DNA of 64,000 bases from Arthrobacter saudimassiliensis. Its GTDB lineage: Bacteria; Actinomycetota; Actinomycetes; Actinomycetales; Micrococcaceae. Both the position numbers and the translations under genes were made by a program. This document shows, one piece after another, positions 33,349 to 44,251 of this stretch; position 1 is the stretch's first letter; every line of letters starts with the position of its first letter. The notes under the pieces were generated by a model. The model did no database searches and had not been told where the DNA came from. It saw only the letters and a list, made by a program, of their open reading frames with translations. The stretch is from assembly GCA_900016675.1 (NCBI GenBank), contig LN483071.1:310001-374000 (forward strand), read 5' to 3'.

Positions 33349-34374
33349 TTACTGTGCCGCACCCTTGAGGCGGGGCGCGATGAACCACAGCAGCAGGCCC
33401 AGGAGCGCCCATCCGCCGAGGGTGATTCCGGCCGCCAGGCCGCCGGCGCCGTCGAAGTAGGCCACCGCGCGGACGAGCGTGCCCGCCGCGCCCGGCGGGA
33501 GCAGCTGGCCGATGACCGCCACGCCCGCGGGCAGCCACTGGGCGCCGGCGGCGATCCCGGCGAACGGGTTGCCGACGAACATCATCGACATGGCGGCCAC
33601 GGTGAAGCCCTTGGTGCCGAAGACCTCTTTGAGCCCGGCGAGCGGCAGGGCCAGCGCGGCGATGCCAAGTCCGACGCTTGCCGCCACCGGCAGAACCGGC
33701 CCGTCGATGCTGCCGAAGACGAACTTCAGGACGGCCGCGACGACGAGCCCGCCGGCGGCCGAGAATCCGAACAGCCCGCCGAGGATCCAGCCGCGCCGGC
33801 CGGCCAGCATTGAACTGAACGCAACGGCCGGCACGATGCCGCCGAAGACCAGCGGGAAGGCCAGGCCGCCGATGCCGACGCCGGTGGGATCATCCGCCGG
33901 CAGCGGCACGACGTCGATGACCCGGGCCGGGGCGCCGCTGCTGCCGGCCAGCACGGCACCGGCGTTGCTGACGGCCCCGGAAATGGCGGTGGAGCCGGCG
34001 CTGGCCACATAGACGGACACGTCCGCCCCGGACAGATCGAACCCGCCGACGACGTCGCGCACTTCGATGCCCTGCTGCAGCTCCGCGGCGTCCGCATAGG
34101 TCCTCGCCTCGAACGCTCCCGGGGCCTGATCGTCGAGCAGCTGGGCCGCCCGCTCCGCCTGTTCGGTTCCTCCCACCATGCCGACCTGCAGGTCCCGGGG
34201 GCCGGAGAGCAGGGAGGGCGAGATGAACAGCATCAACAGGGCGAGGAGGATCGCGGAGAGCCCGACGGTGAGGCCGGCCCAGATGACCACCGGCTTTCCG
34301 CGGGAGGGCTTGGCCGGGCCGGACGGCGCGGGGGTTGTCGATGGGGTGCCGGGGGTGATGCTGGGAGCAGACAT
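33349..34374 (-). CDS. Membrane protein (ABC-2/YhgE-like layout) under a divergent TetR regulator
   Basis: 341 aa. A Pro/Thr-rich cytoplasmic N-terminus is followed by one membrane helix (about residues 30-52), then an outer domain of about 110 residues, then five or six helices. This is the layout of YhgE/Pip-like and ABC-2-type permease proteins. No ATPase gene is nearby. It diverges from the TetR gene at 34465 across two palindromes, so it is probably the repressor's target, perhaps an efflux or envelope-stress function. Confidence 0.7.
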   Translation of the reverse strand: MSAPSITPGTPSTTPAPSGPAKPSRGKPVVIWAGLTVGLSAILLALLMLFISPSLLSGPRDLQVGMVGGTEQAERAAQLLDDQAPGAFEARTYADAAELQQGIEVRDVVGGFDLSGADVSVYVASAGSTAISGAVSNAGAVLAGSSGAPARVIDVVPLPADDPTGVGIGGLAFPLVFGGIVPAVAFSSMLAGRRGWILGGLFGFSAAGGLVVAAVLKFVFGSIDGPVLPVAASVGLGIAALALPLAGLKEVFGTKGFTVAAMSMMFVGNPFAGIAAGAQWLPAGVAVIGQLLPPGAAGTLVRAVAYFDGAGGLAAGITLGGWALLGLLLWFIAPRLKGAAQ

Positions 34375-34390: not shown

Positions 34391-34432
34391 GTGGAGGAAA
34401 TTCCTCCACATCCTACCGGATGAATTCTCTCC
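34391..34432. promoter_or_regulatory. Paired operator-like palindromes between membrane-protein gene and TetR gene
   Basis: GTGGAGGAAATTCCTCCAC at 34391-34409 is a perfect 9-1-9 palindrome. A degenerate second copy, GGATGAATTCTCTCC, lies at 34418-34432, with 25 bases between the starts of the equivalent 15-base cores. Both are in the 90-base gap between the divergent starts, the expected place for a TetR operator. Confidence 0.7.
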
Positions 34433-34464
34433 GGTTAGACTTGGGAAAACCGAAGGGAGCCGAC

Positions 34465-35052
34465 ATGAGGGCGGACGCCGCACGACGCCGGGAGGCGATC
34501 ATCACCCAGGCCCGGCACATTTTCGCCGAGCGCGGCGGTGACGTCGCCCTGGAGGCGATCGCCGCCGCGAGCGGTGTCGGCATCGCGACCCTGTACCGGA
34601 ACTTCCCGAGCCGTGAGGACCTGATCGCTGCGGTAGTGGACGACATGGTGCAGCAGATCCTCGACGCCGTCGAGGAGGCGAAGACGGAGGCCGTCGAGGA
34701 TGCGGCTGCGGCCTGGGAAACACTGCTCACCCGGCTGCTGGACCTGGAGCTGGGGGCGCTGACGGACGGACTCGGCGTGCAGGCACGGCCCGCTTCGAAC
34801 GTGGCCCGGGGTGGCGGATCGGATGCAGCCTCGCCGCTTGCCCGGATTCAGCAGCCGGCCCTGGACGCCCTCGATGAGCTGGTGGCGGTGCTTCAGGACG
34901 CCAAGGCAGTGCGGGGCGGCCTGCGCGGCCTGGACGTGATCGTGGCTCTGGCCACCATCACCCGACCTCAGGCGGCGCCCATCCGTGAGGCGGCCCCGGA
35001 GGTGCGGGCCCAGCTGGCGGAGGCATACCTTGCCTGGACCCGCACCGGATAA
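34465..35052 (+). CDS. TetR family transcriptional regulator
   Basis: 195 aa. The N-terminal helix-turn-helix is RREAIITQARHIFAERGGDV then LEAIAAASGVGIATLYRNFP followed by SREDLIAAV, the TetR signature. The C-terminal ligand and dimer domain is unlike any I recognise. ATG at 34465 has AAGGGAG six bases upstream; the longer frame from 34420 would run over the operator region and is rejected. It likely represses itself and the divergent membrane-protein gene. Confidence 0.88.
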   Translation: MRADAARRREAIITQARHIFAERGGDVALEAIAAASGVGIATLYRNFPSREDLIAAVVDDMVQQILDAVEEAKTEAVEDAAAAWETLLTRLLDLELGALTDGLGVQARPASNVARGGGSDAASPLARIQQPALDALDELVAVLQDAKAVRGGLRGLDVIVALATITRPQAAPIREAAPEVRAQLAEAYLAWTRTG

Positions 35053-37634: not shown

Positions 37635-38279
37635 ATGGCACGGATAGTGATTTTCGGTGGAACCGGCTATGCCGGAAGCAGCATCGCCCGTGAGGCGGCC
37701 TCCCGCGGGCACGAGGTCATCTCCTACTCCCGCAATGCCCCGGCCCAGCCGCTGGACGCGATGGAGTACCGTATCGGTTCCCTCGCTTCCCCGGCGGTGG
37801 TCACGGCTGCGGCCGCCGCTGCCGACCAGCTCGTGGTGGCCGTGCACGGAGCCGACGTCGACGGCGCTCCTCTGGTCACCTACCTGCCCCAACTGATCGA
37901 GGCCGCGCGCAGCAACGGTGTGCGGCTTTCCTTCGTCGGCGGGGCCGGTTCCTCCCTGGTGGCGGAGGGAGGCCCCCGGCTGGTGGACACCCCGGACTTC
38001 CACCCCGATTGGAAGCCCGAGGCCCTTGCCCACGCCGAAGTCCTCGAGGCGCTGCGGCAGGCTCCCGAAGACCTTGACTGGTTCTACGTGAGCCCGGCGG
38101 CCCTTTTCGGTTCCTTCGCCCCGGGCGAGACCACCGGCGCCTACCGCACCGACGGTGACGCCCTCGTAACCAAGGAGGACGGCTCCTCGGAGATCTCGGG
38201 CACCGACTTTGCGCTGGCCTTCGTCGACGAAATCGAGAACCACGCGCACCCTCGCGAGCGGTTCACCGTCGGCCACTGA
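37635..38279 (+). CDS. NAD(P)H-binding protein (atypical short-chain dehydrogenase)
   Basis: 214 aa. The N-terminal loop is IVIFGGTGYAGSSIAREAAS. QLVVAVHGADVD follows, then RLSFVGGAGSSLVAEGGPRL, the YwnB/YwnA-like plan for NAD(P)-binding proteins that lack a known enzyme role. The ATG has a near-perfect AAGGAGGG seven bases upstream. It stands alone downstream of the TetR/DUF4188 pair. The substrate is unknown. Confidence 0.82.
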   Translation: MARIVIFGGTGYAGSSIAREAASRGHEVISYSRNAPAQPLDAMEYRIGSLASPAVVTAAAAAADQLVVAVHGADVDGAPLVTYLPQLIEAARSNGVRLSFVGGAGSSLVAEGGPRLVDTPDFHPDWKPEALAHAEVLEALRQAPEDLDWFYVSPAALFGSFAPGETTGAYRTDGDALVTKEDGSSEISGTDFALAFVDEIENHAHPRERFTVGH

Positions 38280-38288
38280 CGATGGGCT

Positions 38289-38675
38289 TTACCGGCCGTA
38301 GCGTCCGAACCGGTCGGGCCACCACCAGCGCTTCCCAGGCCGCTGTTTCTCCGTGCGGTCGGATCTGTGCCGGGCTGCGTCAAAGTAGTCCTCGCGCGCC
38401 GGATCGAAGACCGCCGACGGCAGGTCCAGCGGTGCACGTCTCAAGGGGCGTGCCGCGAGCAGCTCGCTGATGGCGCCCGGGATGAGCCGCATGCCCTGGC
38501 TGCCTTTCGACGCAGACCGCTTGAGCCGCTGGCCTTCATCTGTGAGCTTCACGCCCCAGGACGAATCCGCCTCAGCAAGTCCGGAACCGACCAGGATCGC
38601 GATCGCCGTCCCCATCCGGTCCTTGCCCAAGGGAAGCCGTCGTCGCCGCAGCGCCGCCTTGCAGGGCAGGGGCAT
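38289..38675 (-). pseudogene. 5'-truncated or frameshifted remnant with winged-helix-like segment
   Basis: The frame encodes about 128 residues, including GLAEADSSWGVKLTDEGQRL (typical of a winged-helix end) and a Trp/Arg-rich tail. There is no ribosome-binding site at the first Met. In the next frame upstream the string LNLEDVLTVNARR looks coding and joins directly after the immunity gene, as if a longer gene had been cut and shifted. I do not recognise the family. It marks the left edge of the disturbed region. Confidence 0.4.
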
Positions 38676-38719
38676 AACCGTCGCGCGTTCACCGTGAGGA
38701 CATCTTCGAGGTTGAGCTT

Positions 38720-39241
38720 TCAGTCGTCGAAAATTTCCGCACTCTTCACCATTTGCCCCAGACGAACTCCTTCGAAAATATCGAGCCAAGGTTCCATGCC
38801 TAGATGAGCCTTCATGGCGCGTTCCAGAATGATCGGGGAGATTGTCGTTCGAAAGGGAACAATCGCCTCTTCCACGTCGGTAGCGACCCGCCGCCGCTCT
38901 CCCTTGAAATCCTCTATGACACAGTTTCCATTTTCGCTTGCCCCGATTTTGTATGCCGGAAGGAACTTGCTGCCGTCCACGACACTGTTGCCAAAAAGCT
39001 GCCACCGCCCTGGGCGAAATAGCCCGTCGAACGTTAAACCGCCAAAGAGTGGCTGAGCCTGGAGGGCATCCGTGACGTCCAGATCGACCTCAGCATCCGG
39101 TGCGACGAAATCGAAAACCACCATGTAATGCGCCGATAAATAGGTCGATATAACTTGTCCGACTGCCGCTCTTCCGTCCCCCAAGGGAACCTTGAAGACA
39201 TCGCCATCCCTGAGAGTCGGGAACTTGATTCGTTGTACCAG
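38720..39241 (-). CDS. Imm26-like immunity protein
   Basis: 173 aa if started at 39241. It opens with DGDVFKVPLGDGRAAVGQVI, then HYMVVFDFVAPDAEVDL, LFGGLTFDGLFRPGRWQLFG and the final ILERAMKAHLGMEPW segment. This is the plan of the Imm26 family, which protects cells from cognate polymorphic toxins. No ATG, GTG or TTG precedes the domain: the only in-frame candidate with a ribosome-binding site (GGAGGGAG, six bases) is CTG at 39241, and a later TTG (39184) would remove the first strand. So the gene either uses CTG or is broken. No toxin gene is visible nearby. Confidence 0.65.
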   Translation of the reverse strand: MVQRIKFPTLRDGDVFKVPLGDGRAAVGQVISTYLSAHYMVVFDFVAPDAEVDLDVTDALQAQPLFGGLTFDGLFRPGRWQLFGNSVVDGSKFLPAYKIGASENGNCVIEDFKGERRRVATDVEEAIVPFRTTISPIILERAMKAHLGMEPWLDIFEGVRLGQMVKSAEIFDD

Positions 39242-39362
39242 GGTGGTCTCCCTCCGACCTCTTGATATCTAGCAGGGCAACGTTTGAGCTAACCGTGGCG
39301 TGCCGGCCTCGCTGTCGAGGAGTCCTTCGGTCAGCACCTGCCTGTCGAAGCCCGATGTCTGG

Positions 39363-39449
39363 TTACCGCGGCGGTTCCTCTTGAAGGACGAGGCCTTCGT
39401 CGCCGGGGAGCACTTTGCCTTGATCCCGCTCCGCTCCGTCCTCCTCGTT
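39363..39449 (-). pseudogene. 3' remnant of the array lipoprotein gene (copy 1)
   Basis: Encodes only the last 28 residues of the lipoprotein family, from Asn-Glu-Glu-Asp through RDQGKVLPGDEGLVLQEEPP, then a stop. Upstream the frame is unrelated. It is a broken outer copy of the tandem array that continues at 39674. Confidence 0.8.
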
Positions 39450-39582
39450 CACATACGTATCCGCAAAGGGGCGCAGCAGTAGCCGCTCGGCATGCTGCGT
39501 TGGCGTGGGCAGGCTCTTGCGTGCCACCCTGCCATATGATCCGGATGGTCCGGTGCTCTTTACTGCAGCAGACAGGGCTCGA

Positions 39583-39609
39583 CTAGAGGTTAAACCGGAA
39601 CTCCACCAC
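39583..39609 (-). repeat. Displaced copy of the ychF 3' end (att-like repeat)
   Basis: On the minus strand it reads Val-Val-Glu-Phe-Arg-Phe-Asn-Leu-stop, the same as the last codons of ychF (Val-Val-Glu-Phe-Arg-Phe-Asn-Val-stop at 43131-43157). 23 of 27 bases match and three of the four changes are synonymous. This copy uses the GC-rich codons GTG, TTC and CGG, as expected of the native gene. Similarity ends abruptly upstream of the Val-Val. Confidence 0.7.
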
Positions 39610-39673
39610 CTTGCGCCGCCGAAAACCTCTCTTCCCCGCTGATCGACCGGGATTGTTTCGCGGAGTTGCGGAG

Positions 39674-40288
39674 TTACTGCGGGGGCTCTTCCTGAAGGAC
39701 GAGGCCTTCGTCTCCGGGGAGTACTTTGCCCTGGTCCCGCGCCGCTTCGTCCTCCTCATTCAAGGTAAACGCGTCACCCGGCGAGCAGGGCGCAGTAGCG
39801 CCAATACTGTACGACTTCTCAGGTGCATCAGTATCGAATACAGCCCGGAGGACGGGGCCGCCCTCTGCGAAGACGGTCGGGTGGGTTGTCGGATTTACGG
39901 TGCGTACGTTCATGCCCAGGGACTCCCAATAGTCGGCGACGCGTTTGGCGTCCCCAACATGGTCAGTCCCCTGGGGAGCCCAGCGGTCATAGCTGTAACT
40001 GGCAGTGGCATCCCCCCGCCCAAGGCTGCTTTCGGGGGCGCACTCCTGCGCCCCCGCAACGCCGTTGCGGGGCCACCACCCGGTGACATCGAGGTGTTCG
40101 GCTGTATTGAAGACCAGCTCAACCACCCGATCCCGACCTTCGCGGGCACTGATTGTCTCTTCGGGGGTGTTCTTCCCCGACATTGAAGTGTCCGGCCCCT
40201 GCTCACCGCAGCCGGCCAGCACCATTCCCGTCGTGAGCACGGCCGAAGCGGCCAGGAGAATCCTCAGACGTGTCCTAAAACCGGTCAC
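39674..40288 (-). CDS. Secreted lipoprotein of the tandem array (copy 2, intact)
   Basis: 204 aa. The signal peptide ends in the lipobox LAGC at about residue 26. The mature part has EETISAREGRDRVVELVFNT, then TGWWPRNGVAGAQEC, SYSYDRWAPQGTDHVGDAKR, VADYWESLGMNVRTVNPTTH and the C-terminal GKVLPGDEGLVLQEEPPQ. Two mature Cys (in AQEC and TAPCSPGD) are kept in copy 3 and could pair. GTG at 40288 has GGAGGGA six bases upstream and matches the copy 3 start; an ATG two codons earlier sits too close to it. I recognise no named family; lipoprotein paralogue arrays often encode immunity or adhesion functions, but that is inference. Confidence 0.78.
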   Translation of the reverse strand: MTGFRTRLRILLAASAVLTTGMVLAGCGEQGPDTSMSGKNTPEETISAREGRDRVVELVFNTAEHLDVTGWWPRNGVAGAQECAPESSLGRGDATASYSYDRWAPQGTDHVGDAKRVADYWESLGMNVRTVNPTTHPTVFAEGGPVLRAVFDTDAPEKSYSIGATAPCSPGDAFTLNEEDEAARDQGKVLPGDEGLVLQEEPPQ

Positions 40289-40539
40289 TGTCATTCCCTC
40301 CAGCAAGGCCTTCTGCAGCTCAGACGACTCCAAAAGGGAGCATACTCATAGATGTTCTCCACTTCTCCATTGATTGCCCAGGCCGCGTTTTATGAGGACC
40401 GTCGCAATAGTGCTGGCGCGCTGGCCCGCGCATGAGGCAGAATCCGCTCCGCACGTAACCACTGCTCCACACCGAATGAGAACTGTTCAGCGGTCGGCCA
40501 GCGCTCAGCGCTGGGGCAGGCTGGGATTGCTTCGCGGCG

Positions 40540-41154
40540 TTACTGCGGGGGCTCTTCCTGAAGGACTAGGCCTTCGTCTCCGGGGAGTACTTTGCCCTGG
40601 TCCCGCTCCGCTTCATCCTCCTCATTCAAGGTAAACGCGTCGCCCGGCGAGCAGGGCGCAGTAGCGCCAACCATGTACGACTGGTCTGCTGCGTAAGTAT
40701 CGAATTCCGCCCGGGCGACGGGACCACCCTCTCCAAAGACGGTCGGGTGCGTCGTCGGGTTTATGATCCGCACGCTCATGCCGAGTGATTCCCAGTACTC
40801 GGCTACGCGTTTGGCGTCCCCGATATGGTCAGTTCCCCGGGGAGCCCAGCGGTCGTAGCTATAACTAGCAGTGGCATGCTCCAGACCACGGCTGCTCTTG
40901 GGGGTGCACTCCTGCGCCCACGCAACGCCGTTGCGGGGCCACCACCCGGTGACATCAAGTTGTTCGGCAGTATTGAAAACAAGCTCGACGGCCCGGTCCC
41001 GCCCCTCTCTGGCACTGATTGTCTCTTCAGGGGCGTCCTTCTCCGATGTTGACATGTTCGACTCCTTCTCAGCGCACGCGCTCAGCGTCATTCCTGTCAT
41101 GAGCACGGCAGCGGCGGCCGTGAGGATCCTCGGACGTGTCCTAAAACCGGGCAC
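40540..41154 (-). CDS. Secreted lipoprotein of the tandem array (copy 3, intact)
   Basis: 204 aa, exactly the length of copy 2. The lipobox is LSAC. The mature chain is, by eye, about 85% identical to copy 2, while the signal peptide and the first 20 mature residues differ much more. The last 30 residues are identical except one. GTG at 41154 is preceded by GGAAGGA seven bases away. It starts 867 bp from copy 2, and the intergenic DNA between copies is also repeated, so duplication was of the whole unit. Confidence 0.78.
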   Translation of the reverse strand: MPGFRTRPRILTAAAAVLMTGMTLSACAEKESNMSTSEKDAPEETISAREGRDRAVELVFNTAEQLDVTGWWPRNGVAWAQECTPKSSRGLEHATASYSYDRWAPRGTDHIGDAKRVAEYWESLGMSVRIINPTTHPTVFGEGGPVARAEFDTYAADQSYMVGATAPCSPGDAFTLNEEDEAERDQGKVLPGDEGLVLQEEPPQ

Positions 41155-41406
41155 TATTCATTCCTTCCAGCAATGCCTTCTGCAGCTCAGCCGATTCCAA
41201 AAGGGAGCATACTCGTAGATCTTCTCCGCTTCTCCATTGATTGCCTAGGCCGCGTTTTATGAGGACCGTCGCAATAGTGCGGACGCGCCGACCCTCTCAT
41301 GAGGCAGAATCAGCGGCGCACGTAACCGCTGCTCCACACCGAATGAGAACTGTTAAGCGGACGGACAGCGCTCAGCGCCGAGGCCGCCGGGGATTGCTTC
41401 GTGGAG

Positions 41407-41672
41407 TTACTGCGGCGGCTCTTCCTGAAGGACTAGGCCTTCGTCTCCGGGGAGTACTTTGCCCTGGTCCCGCTCCGCTTCGTCCTCCTCATTCAAGGTA
41501 AACGAGGACGGGGCCGCCCTCTGCGAAGACAGTCGGGTGCGTTGTCGAGTCAACTGTGCGGACGCTCATGCCCAAGGATTGATTCCCAGCACTCGCCAGC
41601 GCGTTTGGCGTCCCCAGTATGGTCAGTTCCCCGGGGTGCCCAGCGGTCGTAGCTATAACTGGCAGTGGCACT
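41407..41672 (-). pseudogene. Decayed lipoprotein gene of the array (copy 4)
   Basis: Keeps the C-terminal NEEDEAERDQGKVLPGDEGL part. It has lost about 90 bases before it (the segment with the second Cys is missing), carries a small insertion that shifts the frame after SLGMSVRT, and ends at ATASYSYDRWAPRGTD with no signal peptide. It cannot make the full protein. Confidence 0.8.
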
Positions 41673-42188
41673 CGGCCTGATGCTCATCGAAAACCGAGAT
41701 TTCTGTGCCGAAAACGGCCGGTAGAGAATTCGGGTCACAATATAGTGACGTTGACCGGCCAGTACCCACTGTTCCGTTTGCCCTACCGACATATACCTGT
41801 GTGGACGGATCATCGAAGCGAAGGAAGCGGTTCAGTTGAGCCTGGACAGCCTCAGCCCGCCAAAGCTGCGAGTCTCATGTGCGCGATCGCTGCAGGTATC
41901 GAGCGCGACCTGGGCACGAGGGTTCACAGTAACGAACACGCACTCGATTTCTTGCATAAGACAAGGAGTAACCCTGGTCGCCAAGCAGGCTGTCACGTTG
42001 GCGGCCTCGACGTCCGACCTACTCCCTGCCGCTTCGCCCTCGACGATGTTTTCGCGGGATTTTGGGCCAGAAGCGGCAAAACGTTCACCTCATGGCTTTT
42101 TATGAAAGCAAACATCGGCAAGCGAAAACGGACCGGGCTGCTTAAACGGAAAACAGCGCCCTGAGACCAGCGCCAGGAAGGGACTCCC
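41673..42188. other. Non-coding or decayed stretch of lower GC
   Basis: No convincing gene. The frame open on the plus strand to 42164 has no family resemblance and no ribosome-binding site. GTCAC/GTGAC with a six-base AATATA spacer lies around 41735-41750. The stretch abuts the array and presumably contains the promoter of the 42189 gene. It looks like residue of earlier insertions. Confidence 0.5.
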
Positions 42189-43001
42189 ATGGAAAACACT
42201 CAACAAAGCGGTGACGCCAGAGCCCAGCTCGAAGGCACACTTACGTACCTCCAAAACCTGCTGCGATTCATCGACGCGCGGTGGCAGGAGAAGATAGCGA
42301 TTGCACAGCGCTACAGGCCACTAAAGCCACTCCACAAGAAGTGGGGGTTGCTGCCGTTCGCGCTCTTGACCGTTGGCGTGGTGGTCCTTTCCACCGCAAT
42401 CGGAACGCCCATCATTCAGGCGTGGGCGAAAGCTGAAGCATACGCGCAAGGGCAGTTCCACTACCCGAATATCCAGCCGCTCAGCGTGGGCATCCTCGCG
42501 ATCCCGGTGGCCCTTATCCTTGCATTGGCCATCGTGTTTGCCCGAAACAAGGTGGTTCTCCCCCACCTGAACGCCCGGATCCAACGAGCGAATCAGCAGC
42601 GTGAGACCCATAACCAGGCCGTTTCAGTTGAAGAGCAGCACGTGGACGCCCAATTGGGCCAAGCCAGCCGTGATTTTGCCACGAATATTGGCGATAGGTT
42701 TCCCCAGGCCTACCTCTATGACGAAGCAGTCAGCTTCTGCCTCCAGGTGGTGCGTAACCACCGGGCCATCGCCTTGCACGAGGCGATCAACCTCTACGAG
42801 ACTGAACGGCACCGCCAGCGAATGGAAAACATGCAAGCCTGGCAACTGGCTGAGGCACAACGAACGCGAAAGCTCATGGCCGTCGGCACCGTGGTCAACG
42901 CTACGATGCAGGGAGCGGTAATCGGGACGATACGACGCGAAGGCGCGCAAACACGTGCAGCCCTAAGCAAGCCCGTCGACGTGAACGTCAGGATCCGCTG
43001 A
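42189..43001 (+). CDS. Two-helix membrane protein, unknown function
   Basis: 270 aa. A soluble N-terminal helix region (QLEGTLTYLQNLLRFIDARW, to about residue 50) is followed by two membrane helices at about 55-77 and 97-120, then a long cytoplasmic helical domain (VSVEEQHVDAQLGQASRDFA; EAINLYETERHRQRMENMQA). GGAAGGGA lies just upstream of the ATG. GC content and third-base G/C are lower than in flanking core genes, suggesting transfer. It belongs to no family I know. It is the only intact plus-strand gene of the accessory region. Confidence 0.7.
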   Translation: MENTQQSGDARAQLEGTLTYLQNLLRFIDARWQEKIAIAQRYRPLKPLHKKWGLLPFALLTVGVVVLSTAIGTPIIQAWAKAEAYAQGQFHYPNIQPLSVGILAIPVALILALAIVFARNKVVLPHLNARIQRANQQRETHNQAVSVEEQHVDAQLGQASRDFATNIGDRFPQAYLYDEAVSFCLQVVRNHRAIALHEAINLYETERHRQRMENMQAWQLAEAQRTRKLMAVGTVVNATMQGAVIGTIRREGAQTRAALSKPVDVNVRIR

Positions 43002-43069
43002 TATCACTCTCGCCGCAAGCGGGTCGTTCGCGCAGCCTGGAACTCACTCCTGGACGAGTAGGTTCTCGA

Positions 43070-43116
43070 CAAGAAAAGGGCTGATTCGGCAGTGTGCAAT
43101 CTGCCGAACCAACCCT
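43070..43116 (-). terminator. ychF terminator
   Basis: On the minus strand a 16-base-pair stem (14 paired; core GGTTCGGCAG/CTGCCGAA) with an 8-base loop is followed by TTTTCTT: a standard rho-independent terminator 15-60 bases after the ychF stop. Confidence 0.85.
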
Positions 43117-43130
43117 ATATCTCCGAGCAA

Positions 43131-43157
43131 CTAGACGTTAAACCTAAACTCCACTAC
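43131..43157 (-). repeat. ychF 3' end, partner of the repeat at 39583-39609
   Basis: The final eight sense codons plus stop of ychF. Here they are GTA, GTG, GAG, TTT, AGG, TTT, AAC, GTC; GTA, TTT and AGG are poor codons for this genome, unlike the copy at 39583. That is what one expects if this end was brought in by integrated DNA. Confidence 0.6.
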
Positions 43158-44216
43158 GTCGCCGTCGGCCATGACGTAGTCCTTGCCTTCGATACGCACC
43201 TTGCCACGGGACTTGGCCTCGGCCATCGATCCGGCGTCGACCAGGTCCTCGAAGGACACCACTTCAGCCTTGATGAAGCCGCGCTGGAAGTCGGAGTGGA
43301 TGACGCCGGCAGCCTCCGGAGCGGTATCGCCCTGCCGGATGGTCCAGGCACGGGCCTCCTTCGGGCCGGCGGTGAGGTAGGTCTGCAGGCCCAGCGTGTG
43401 GAAGCCGACGCGGGCCAGCTGGTCCAGGCCGGACTCGGTCTGCCCGTTCATCTCCAGCATCTCGCGGGCCTCCTCCTCGTCCAGCTCCACGAGGTCGGCC
43501 TCGAGCTTGGCGTCCAGGAAGATGCAGTCGGCCGGAGCCACCAGTTCGCGCAGCTCGGCCTGCCGGTCCGGGTTGCCCAGCACCGCGTCGTCGACGTTGA
43601 ATACGTAGATGAACGGCTTGGCGGTGAGCAGGCCCAGCTCCTTGAGCGCGGCCATGTCCAGCTTGTCGGACTCAATGGCGGAGAAGATCGTGTCGCCGCG
43701 CTCCAGCACCGCCTGGGCGGCCTGCATGGCAGCCAGCTCGGCGGCGTCGCGCTTCTTGATCTTCACTTCCTTCTCGACGCGCGGAATCGCCTTCTCCAGC
43801 GTCTGCAGGTCCGAGAGGATCAGCTCGGTGTTGATGGTCTCCATGTCGGAGCGCGGATCGACCTTGCCGTCCACGTGCACCACGTCGGGATCATCAAACA
43901 CGCGGATCACCTGGGCGATCGCCTGCGCTTCGCGGATGTTCGCGAGGAACTGGTTGCCCAGGCCTTCGCCCTCGGAGGCGCCCTTCACGATGCCGGCGAT
44001 GTCCACAAAGGACACCGTGGCGGGCAGGATGCGTGCGGAGCCAAAGAGCTCGGCAAGCTTCTCCAGCCGCGGATCCGGCAGCGGCACGACGCCGACGTTC
44101 GGTTCGATCGTCGCGAACGGATAGTTCGCCGCCAGCACGTTGTTGCGGGTCAGCGCGTTGAACAGAGTTGATTTGCCGACGTTGGGCAGGCCGACGATGC
44201 CGATTGTAAGAGCCAC
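43131..44216 (-). CDS. ychF: Redox/ribosome-associated ATPase YchF (Obg family)
   Basis: P-loop ATPase/GTPase of the Obg family that binds ribosomes and takes part in stress responses, 361 aa. The P-loop is GIVGLPNVGKSTLFNALT, G3 is VDIAGIVKGASEGEGLGNQF, the G4 place reads NVDD, and the TGS-like C-terminal domain contains FHTLGLQTYLTAGPKEARAW and GFIKAEVVSFEDLV. GTG at 44216 matches the family start. A TATCAT hexamer lies 8 bases upstream and there is no ribosome-binding site, so the message may be leaderless. Its last codons are duplicated at 39583. Confidence 0.96.
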   Translation of the reverse strand: MALTIGIVGLPNVGKSTLFNALTRNNVLAANYPFATIEPNVGVVPLPDPRLEKLAELFGSARILPATVSFVDIAGIVKGASEGEGLGNQFLANIREAQAIAQVIRVFDDPDVVHVDGKVDPRSDMETINTELILSDLQTLEKAIPRVEKEVKIKKRDAAELAAMQAAQAVLERGDTIFSAIESDKLDMAALKELGLLTAKPFIYVFNVDDAVLGNPDRQAELRELVAPADCIFLDAKLEADLVELDEEEAREMLEMNGQTESGLDQLARVGFHTLGLQTYLTAGPKEARAWTIRQGDTAPEAAGVIHSDFQRGFIKAEVVSFEDLVDAGSMAEAKSRGKVRIEGKDYVMADGDVVEFRFNV

Positions 44217-44251
44217 GTTAGCCAATGATACCGGGGGTGGCTCCACAGCCT

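Follow-up and report, generated by a model that had tools for sequence, protein, structure and literature searches.

A probable serine-integrase attachment site at the coding end of ychF, and an apparently decayed cassette array behind it in Arthrobacter saudimassiliensis

A 64,000-nucleotide stretch of the genome of Arthrobacter saudimassiliensis (assembly GCA_900016675.1, contig LN483071.1, positions 310,001 to 374,000), which we call the window and whose positions we count from its first letter, carries the GTPase gene ychF on its minus strand. Downstream of this gene lies a segment of accessory DNA in which the last codons of ychF occur a second time. We describe here what this segment consists of, what occupies the same place in related genomes (referred to by G handles, and individual sequence stretches by L handles) and why we consider the 3′ end of ychF to be a candidate docking site for short gene cassettes. 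The features of the locus, from ychF downstream, are as follows.

43131-44246, minus strand: ychF, encoding a GTPase (Pfam YchF-GTPase_C and MMR_HSR1; orthologue search), the putative target gene, whose last codons would form the attachment site
43131-43157, minus strand: left junction (attL-like), the last eight codons and stop of ychF with the element-type codons TTT AGG, a codon pattern common to the first-position cassettes of relatives
43082-43111, minus strand: strong hairpin with a T-rich tail directly 3′ of the ychF stop, a terminator-like cassette head (folding; the first 90 nt past the stop fold at -42.8 kcal/mol)
42189-43001, plus strand: gene for a 270-aa protein, probably a membrane protein (hydrophobic stretches by eye), cassette cargo with no family match
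41322-41669, minus strand: third copy of a lipoprotein gene, truncated (self and cross-cassette BLAST; borders approximate)
40540-41154, minus strand: lipoprotein-like gene, copy 1, 204 aa (BLAST, alignment)
39674-40333, minus strand: lipoprotein-like gene, copy 2, 219 aa (BLAST, alignment)
39610-39630, minus strand: degenerate cassette right-end arm AGAGGTTTTCGGCGGCGCAAG (compared with the consensus of 136 named junctions among the matches listed)
39583-39609, minus strand: second copy of the ychF 3′ end, an array junction with the native-type codons TTC CGG (sequence comparison)
39362-39451, minus strand: lipoprotein gene fragment beyond the second ychF-end copy (flank BLAST; most of the relatives' lipoprotein copies match at 82-90%)
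38312-38622, minus strand: remnant of another gene, found 3′ of ychF in L032, L045, L049, L059 and L061 (flank BLAST, 71-75%)
37635-38279, plus strand: gene for an NAD(P)-binding protein, the neighbour of ychF in the near-empty-site relatives G001 and G005 (Pfam; flank comparison)

The two copies of the ychF end read GTA GTG GAG TTT AGG TTT AAC GTC TAG (VVEFRFNV and stop) at 43131-43157 and GTG GTG GAG TTC CGG TTT AAC CTC TAG (VVEFRFNL and stop) at 39583-39609. An earlier note on this stretch had pointed to this repeat, and the details it gave hold: the copies share orientation and 23 of 27 bases, and codon readout of both makes three of the four differences synonymous. When both strands of the window were searched, position 39583 was the top other match to the ychF end, with the runner-up at 16/27, and 200 simulated sequences of 64 kb, built on a first-order Markov model, never gave a match above 19/27, a value attained in three of them. 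Nevertheless, 23/27 is no proof on its own, because six of 300 random 27-mers drawn from the repeat-containing window also have a partner at 23/27 or better, and relatives are needed to settle the matter. The repeat is proven real because it recurs 3′ of ychF in other genomes. Directly before the 39583 copy, in the ychF sense, stands the arm AGAGGTTTTCGGCGGCGCAAG, a degenerate version of the conserved arm found at the right end of other cassettes. Aligned without gaps, 10 of its 15 arm bases match the consensus, whereas 137 random nearby stretches of the named loci, used as controls, reach at most eight.

Orthologues of ychF were sought in 59 genomes, the window's own included, and were strong in 56; the three others, which are fragmented, gave weak paralogue-like hits only. 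We read about 20 kb downstream of ychF in 40 relatives (12.5 kb in L068, where the contig ended), many of which hold extra copies of the ychF end, all in the orientation of ychF. The opposite strand of the 41 downstream stretches, window included, contains no ychF-end copy. A strict junction pattern, RAAYGTNGTNGARTTYMGNTTYAAYGTNT, built to exclude the usual ychF end, has 27 matches in 15 of 29 whole Arthrobacter genomes, and each of the 27 is on the ychF strand, no more than 24 kb downstream of the gene; the reversed pattern, which served as a control, has none in the same genomes. The window's genome (G000) has no match to the strict pattern, its copy being degenerate. A looser search allowing up to 6/27 mismatches, under which the sites in L042, L049, L053 and L057 are weak, delimits 44 cassettes in 21 of the 29 genomes. 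These run from 524 to 11632 bp with a median of 1356, and 32 of the 44 are no longer than 2.5 kb. In L042, a gene of the serine-hydrolase/beta-lactamase family (PF00144) lies 0.5-4.5 kb past ychF, between ychF and a half-changed copy of its end (5/27 mismatches).

The same junction is found well beyond Arthrobacter. Across the order, the strict pattern occurs in 40 of 396 genomes and in 14 of 109 genera, with no match for the reversed control. A scan of named genomes returned at least 119 stretches with a junction, and 80 of these are titled, all from organisms that we take to be actinobacterial. The named matches listed span about 31 named genera, from Arthrobacter, Kocuria, Brevibacterium and Microbacterium to Streptomyces and Nocardia, and contain 138 junctions, of which 53 share a locus (within 8 kb) with ychF and 85 have no ychF in reach. 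All 53 are downstream of ychF on the same strand, at distances of 324-6242 bp. The consensus of the right-end arm that precedes the ychF-like repeat, taken from 136 named junctions among the matches listed, is AGAGGTTATTCGGCTACGGAAC, a sequence absent from ychF. Plasmid and phage collections gave no match to a cassette-junction query.

At the other boundary, the ychF-like stop is followed by a hairpin and T tract in 34 of 44 cassette heads versus 7 of 132 control windows, eight of the 44 being copies of one cassette. Such hairpins also follow single-copy ychF ends, as in L051 and L058, and are not special to cassettes. The relevance of the hairpin is that the cassette supplies a new one along with its own last codons. 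Among the matches listed, 17 of 136 junctions belong to a recurrent cassette class that begins CGTTATTGACG...CGTTATA (including L116, L135, L137, L151, L177, L184, L197 and L209) and that continues into what, by eye only, resembles a toxin-antitoxin pair of the HigB/RelE type.

Near-empty sites in two relatives reveal how far the accessory DNA of the window reaches. A homologue of the gene at 37635-38279 begins 88 bp past the ychF stop in L051 (G005) and 193 bp past it in L058 (G001); because ychF adjoins this gene there, the accessory DNA of the window extends to about 38280 and, measured against these two genomes, is about 4.85 kb long (approximately 38280-43130). The earlier note had proposed an integration at the 3′ end of ychF in which incoming codons restored the reading frame, and this is supported both by the array junctions of relatives and by the integrases that adjoin such sites elsewhere. 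Its picture of a single island was too simple, since the insertion is upheld while the segment appears as the remnant of a many-cassette hotspot. Likewise, the copy at 39583 is a junction, as had been thought, within an array, but may not be the displaced native end of ychF, because 38280-39582 also contains remnants. The expectation that an empty site would join ychF to the DNA just left of 39583 failed, given that G001 and G005 join it to the 37635-38279 gene instead.

The outer border also varies among strains, as the last junction in L033, L036, L037 and L039 lies about 70 bp from a homologue of window 34420-35052. Homologues of the 37635-38279 gene are present in 5 of the 40 downstream stretches, and this gene may itself be variable. 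Between 33349 and 38279 in the window, the gene order after the array depends on the strain, with the 37635-38279 gene next in some and the pair 34420-35052 and 33349-34374 next elsewhere. From these comparisons, the variable stretch may extend past the array.

Between the two copies of the ychF end lies what had been described as a lipoprotein array and a membrane gene, and we find the 270-aa gene together with two intact lipoprotein copies and one truncated one. Beyond its own genome, the 270-aa protein was matched in only two of 295 family genomes searched, with a close homologue in G012, where the gene likewise sits just 3′ of ychF, and a weaker one in G961. Lipoprotein copy 1 shares 78-84% identity with the 10 remaining members of the alignment, which include genes of L037, L046, L053, L059 and L061. 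Lipoprotein homologues are located inside cassettes of L037, L044, L053, L059 and L061 and further downstream in L040, L041 and L046. At 39674-41669 the lipoprotein gene is tandemly duplicated within its cassette, with no recognisable att copies between the duplicates, and multiple copies also occur in L059 and L061. Neither cargo type of the window matched a family, and the predicted structure of the lipoprotein (mean pLDDT, the predicted local distance difference test score, of 59) was too poor for a structure search. Judged by its letters, the array in the window looks decayed, made up of the 270-aa gene, a lipoprotein cassette duplicated in tandem and other remnants.

Some cassettes recur in a manner that is informative about how they might spread. 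A cassette of 1166 bp with a 203-aa gene is present in eight genomes, occupying first position in seven and second position in L035, and the cassettes that follow it differ. Its copies are 94.8-100% identical and are more alike than ychF itself in 26 of 28 genome pairs. Other cassettes likewise occur at more than one position, for example one that is first in L032 and third in L037 and L043. This recurrence fits cassettes that move as a unit and that probably enter beside ychF, although it could also reflect the sharing of whole ychF regions.

Comparison of junctions further confines the point of exchange. The first cassettes of L037, L039, L043, L044 and L046 share 98.4-100% identity, yet the second Val codon of ychF has a host-specific wobble base, and because ychF varies there before near-identical cassettes, the exchange is placed to the right of that base. 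Element codons start with the wobble base of the Phe codon. Integrase-type elements have a stretch common to both ends, which is GAGTTCCG in G031 and GGTGGAGTTCCG in G167. Combining the wobble differences, the start of the element codons and the common end stretches, strand exchange is assigned to GAGTT in the Glu-Phe codons of ychF; these alignments define an interval only, within which the overlap dinucleotide is not fixed. Distal junctions in L041 and L057 show coding drift.

Searches of the window's genome turned up no large serine integrase, in keeping with the earlier statement that no integrase remains there. Two candidates from the host itself were set aside: a tRNA or tmRNA attachment site, as the window contains no tRNA or tmRNA gene, and a tyrosine integrase of the same genome, which has just two PF00589 proteins, both on another contig. 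Elsewhere, large serine integrases do lie beside ychF-end-like sites, on two viral contigs and at four of four genome loci. Ten IMG/VR contigs carry the ychF-end pattern, and in L073 and L079 a large serine integrase gene starts 31 and 40 bp away from it, respectively. A class-wide search with the L079 integrase over 394 genomes gave four matches with E values of 1e-90 or better, each with the site within about 60 bp upstream. Thus, an attP-like site stands beside the integrase in all six L079-type loci; the site had led to L073 and L079, the integrase to L286-L289. The sole match of the L079 integrase among viral contigs is the same contig. Resolvase (PF00239) and Recombinase (PF07508) domains are present in all three integrases scanned (L054, L073 and L079). 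The viral contigs also include some on which the pattern is a genuine ychF end, as in L077 and L078, or part of one, and ychF of L077 ends VVEFRFNVSAKGG. Open reading frames (ORFs) at L077:10597-11724 and L079:1386-2552, on contigs with a ychF end or a ychF-end-like site, resemble tyrosine integrases by eye.

A second integrase type, represented by L054 of A. gandavensis, occurs in 12 of 396 genomes of the order at E 1e-40 or better. Ten of these were fetched with wide flanks (G085 and G102 were left out), and in six of the ten ychF lies 0.05-16 kb from the integrase gene and encodes an element-supplied C-terminal tail in place of FNV. The tails are HGGTSGSGAKK, TGLTSKK, HGGQSGSGKK, SGSASKR, HGITSAAQGKK and HGITSASQGKK. 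Lysine- or arginine-ended YchF tails (e.g. ...EFRHGGTSGSGAKK) are supplied by integrase-type elements in several families (L264, L266, L267, L268, L274, L275 and L063), and their recurring similarity suggests selection on the element-supplied C-terminus. Candidate right ends were found for the L054-type loci of G010, G025, G167, G175 and G248, whereas G360 has no right end within the 39.8 kb read. In G031, for which no integrase is documented, the ychF tail is altered and a right end is present.

Three loci titled Brevibacterium, one titled Brachybacterium and another two outside the listed titles, all six of the cassette type, terminate in a truncated 5′ part of an integrase gene beside the same arm as the Arthrobacter cassettes. 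These pieces beside the same arm tie the arrays to such integrases, without showing which one moves them. In L106, L130, L151, L177, L196 and L197 only about the first 56 integrase codons are kept beside the site, with five of the six aligning to residue 56 and L130 to residue 72. From these alignments, the shortened integrase end appears as if it had spread as a unit.

Given these observations, we consider it very probable that the 3′ end of ychF is an attachment site (attB) of large serine integrases, that cassettes rebuild its last codons and stack there as an array, and that the window holds a decayed array of this kind. An incoming cassette would bring its own synonymous last codons (FRFNV and stop) and usually a terminator-like hairpin after the stop. 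In this way ychF would stay intact, and the rebuilt end could presumably act as a target again. Repeated insertion would then generate an array consisting of the ychF end, a cassette, a copy of the ychF end, another cassette and so on. The enzyme would probably be supplied in trans by prophages or by different elements that share this site. The repeats, their restriction to ychF, the borders of the cassettes, the near-empty sites, the closeness of integrase and site and the exchange interval are observed, whereas it is by inference that we have these integrases move the cassettes, do so in trans and let newcomers enter beside ychF.

Several findings speak against this interpretation or restrict it. 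We call the sites of G001 and G005 near-empty because the gap after ychF in L058 starts like a cassette head, and hence that site may not be pristine. In the window the right-end arm is degenerate, and in two of the 28 genome pairs ychF is more alike than the 1166-bp cassette. Only in L073 and L079 does an integrase adjoin the site among the four viral contigs with listed ORFs (ten contigs in all), and the arm sequence varies among L079-type integrase lineages. A serine recombinase related to that of L079 was found in 9 of the 29 Arthrobacter genomes but near ychF only in G010 and G025, so that most arrays have no enzyme seen in their own genome. Among the 12 L054-type genomes only G010 has the strict junction as well, and L054-type elements exchange FNV for another tail, unlike the cassettes, and thus may not provide the cassettes' own enzyme.

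The most serious alternative, to which we would give somewhat less than an even chance, is that each cassette is the decayed remnant of a complete integrase-bearing element, that is, a cis-mobilisable element (CIME), and that the arrays are graveyards in which nothing moves cassettes. This explanation overlaps with ours in everything except movement. It is favoured by the six loci with truncated integrase 5′ ends by the site, by the coding drift at some distal junctions and by the decayed state of the array in the window, and the formation and accretion of CIMEs have been described in the excerpted text of PMC5704250. Weighing against it, many cassettes are short with both ends conserved, and the 1166-bp cassette at two positions in eight genomes suggests either movement of a unit or a shared neighbourhood. 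A second alternative needs no site-specific enzyme and has the repeats spread through homologous recombination or through segmental duplication at ychF; it could draw on the tandem lipoprotein copies of the window, which lack recognisable att copies between them, and on the possibility that replacement of the ychF region shares near-identical first cassettes. We regard it as very improbable, given that the junctions bear a conserved non-ychF arm on the ychF strand only, that the repeat spans merely the last ~27 bp of ychF, that integrase genes adjoin the site and that host-specific wobble bases of ychF precede near-identical cassettes. Finally, a classical integron (with the tyrosine recombinase IntI and folded attC sites) that has ychF as a chance neighbour would account for short arrayed cassettes whose every att copy found has one orientation, but is hardly credible when the recombinases beside the site are serine recombinases, the target lies inside the coding end of ychF and the only two PF00589 proteins of the window's genome are on another contig.

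Returning to the view of the ychF end as a serine-integrase attachment site, one could speculate further that these arrays are a serine-integrase counterpart of the integron across Actinomycetota. Under this broader proposal, which we hold tentatively and think rather less likely to be right than wrong, the coding end of ychF would dock non-autonomous and often single-gene cassettes in trans, each of which rebuilds the site and adds a new terminator, and integrase-bearing elements would rewrite the tail and may thereby close the site to later cassettes. The cargo would include candidate anti-phage genes as well as unknown proteins.

Cassette proteins of the Arthrobacter arrays were sampled by scanning 36 of 52 representatives against Pfam (16 were not scanned) and nine proteins with PADLOC. 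No Pfam family was found at E 0.001 for 20 of the 36, and none of the 36 belongs to a recombinase family. Queries with the L073 and L079 integrases matched just L054 and L055 among the 40 downstream stretches. Among the proteins with a match, L041 contributes a GmrSD-type restriction enzyme as well as a NACHT NTPase, L044 a KAP NTPase (PifA-like according to PADLOC) and L039 a DrmD-like helicase whose partner is TmtA-like; an AAA ATPase comes from L048, and L035 and L049 supply a PIN-like and a KptA-like protein, respectively. GmrSD is also located past ychF in L064 and L066, from other genera. If cassettes do enter and leave in trans, actinobacteria would possess an integron-like gene-capture platform run by serine integrases that can be found with one short DNA pattern. 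Such a platform would yield a ready list of cargo of unknown function beside candidate defence genes, supply integrase tools with natural attB/attP pairs and make it possible to study how a housekeeping gene that is conserved copes with a target in the end of its own reading frame.

Integrons are arrays of short cassettes that are joined at repeated sites in one orientation, and the ychF arrays resemble them in these respects. The ychF arrays differ in that a serine rather than a tyrosine recombinase is implicated, in that no IntI was seen in the window's own genome (relatives were not searched) and in that the cassettes join at the coding end of a housekeeping gene. Among the matches listed from the open-licence PMC literature, no paper deals with arrays at the 3′ end of ychF. 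The nearest reports, judged from excerpts, describe pneumococcal prophages near or upstream of ychF (PMC8637289, PMC10383233), and the word ychF is absent from the main text of PMC10083194.

Closer precedents are found among elements that large serine recombinases integrate, and the comparisons that follow draw on excerpts of the cited papers. The staphylococcal cassette chromosome (SCC, including SCCmec) and the Enterococcus cassette chromosome (ECC) enter the 3′ region of rlmH by means of large serine recombinases; direct-repeat att sites flank them on either side, and remnants lie downstream (PMC6222049). The ychF arrays share insertion at the 3′ end of a conserved gene, att repeats and remnants, whereas their target is ychF rather than rlmH, and two integrases scanned score 59.7 and 78 bits at best (with CcrB) against a curated cut-off of 900. 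Unlike ECCs, which measure tens of kb and carry ccrAB (PMC6222049), most ychF cassettes span 0.5-2.5 kb, and no recombinase was seen among their proteins scanned. In Dehalococcoides, ssrA islands attributed to the serine recombinase DsiB are arranged in tandem within 100 kb downstream of their target and bounded by repeats of its 3′ end; next to the repeat, though not next to the gene, stands a conserved motif, and some islands have no integration genes, while sixteen have a six-gene integration module (PMC3146451). Tandem units at the 3′ end of one gene and a conserved arm absent from that gene are common to both systems. In contrast, ychF is a protein reading frame instead of a tmRNA gene, and the Arthrobacter cassettes often have one or two ORFs by simple ORF picking.

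In CIMEs, and in the tandem accretion of integrative and conjugative or integrative and mobilisable elements, units with attL and attR but no integration genes are stacked at one site (PMC5704250). The ychF cassettes match this description in their stacking and in having an att-like site at both ends with no integrase inside, as far as scanned. They differ in that very short units dominate and that the junction recurs over many genera. PAISt of Streptomyces is an actinobacterial island at the 3′ end of bacA with modular excision (PMC4057263), and it therefore shares insertion at a gene 3′ end in actinobacteria while differing by an 8-bp palindromic target, TTCATGAA, in another gene. On balance, we file the ychF arrays as a probable variant of serine-integrase tandem accretion.

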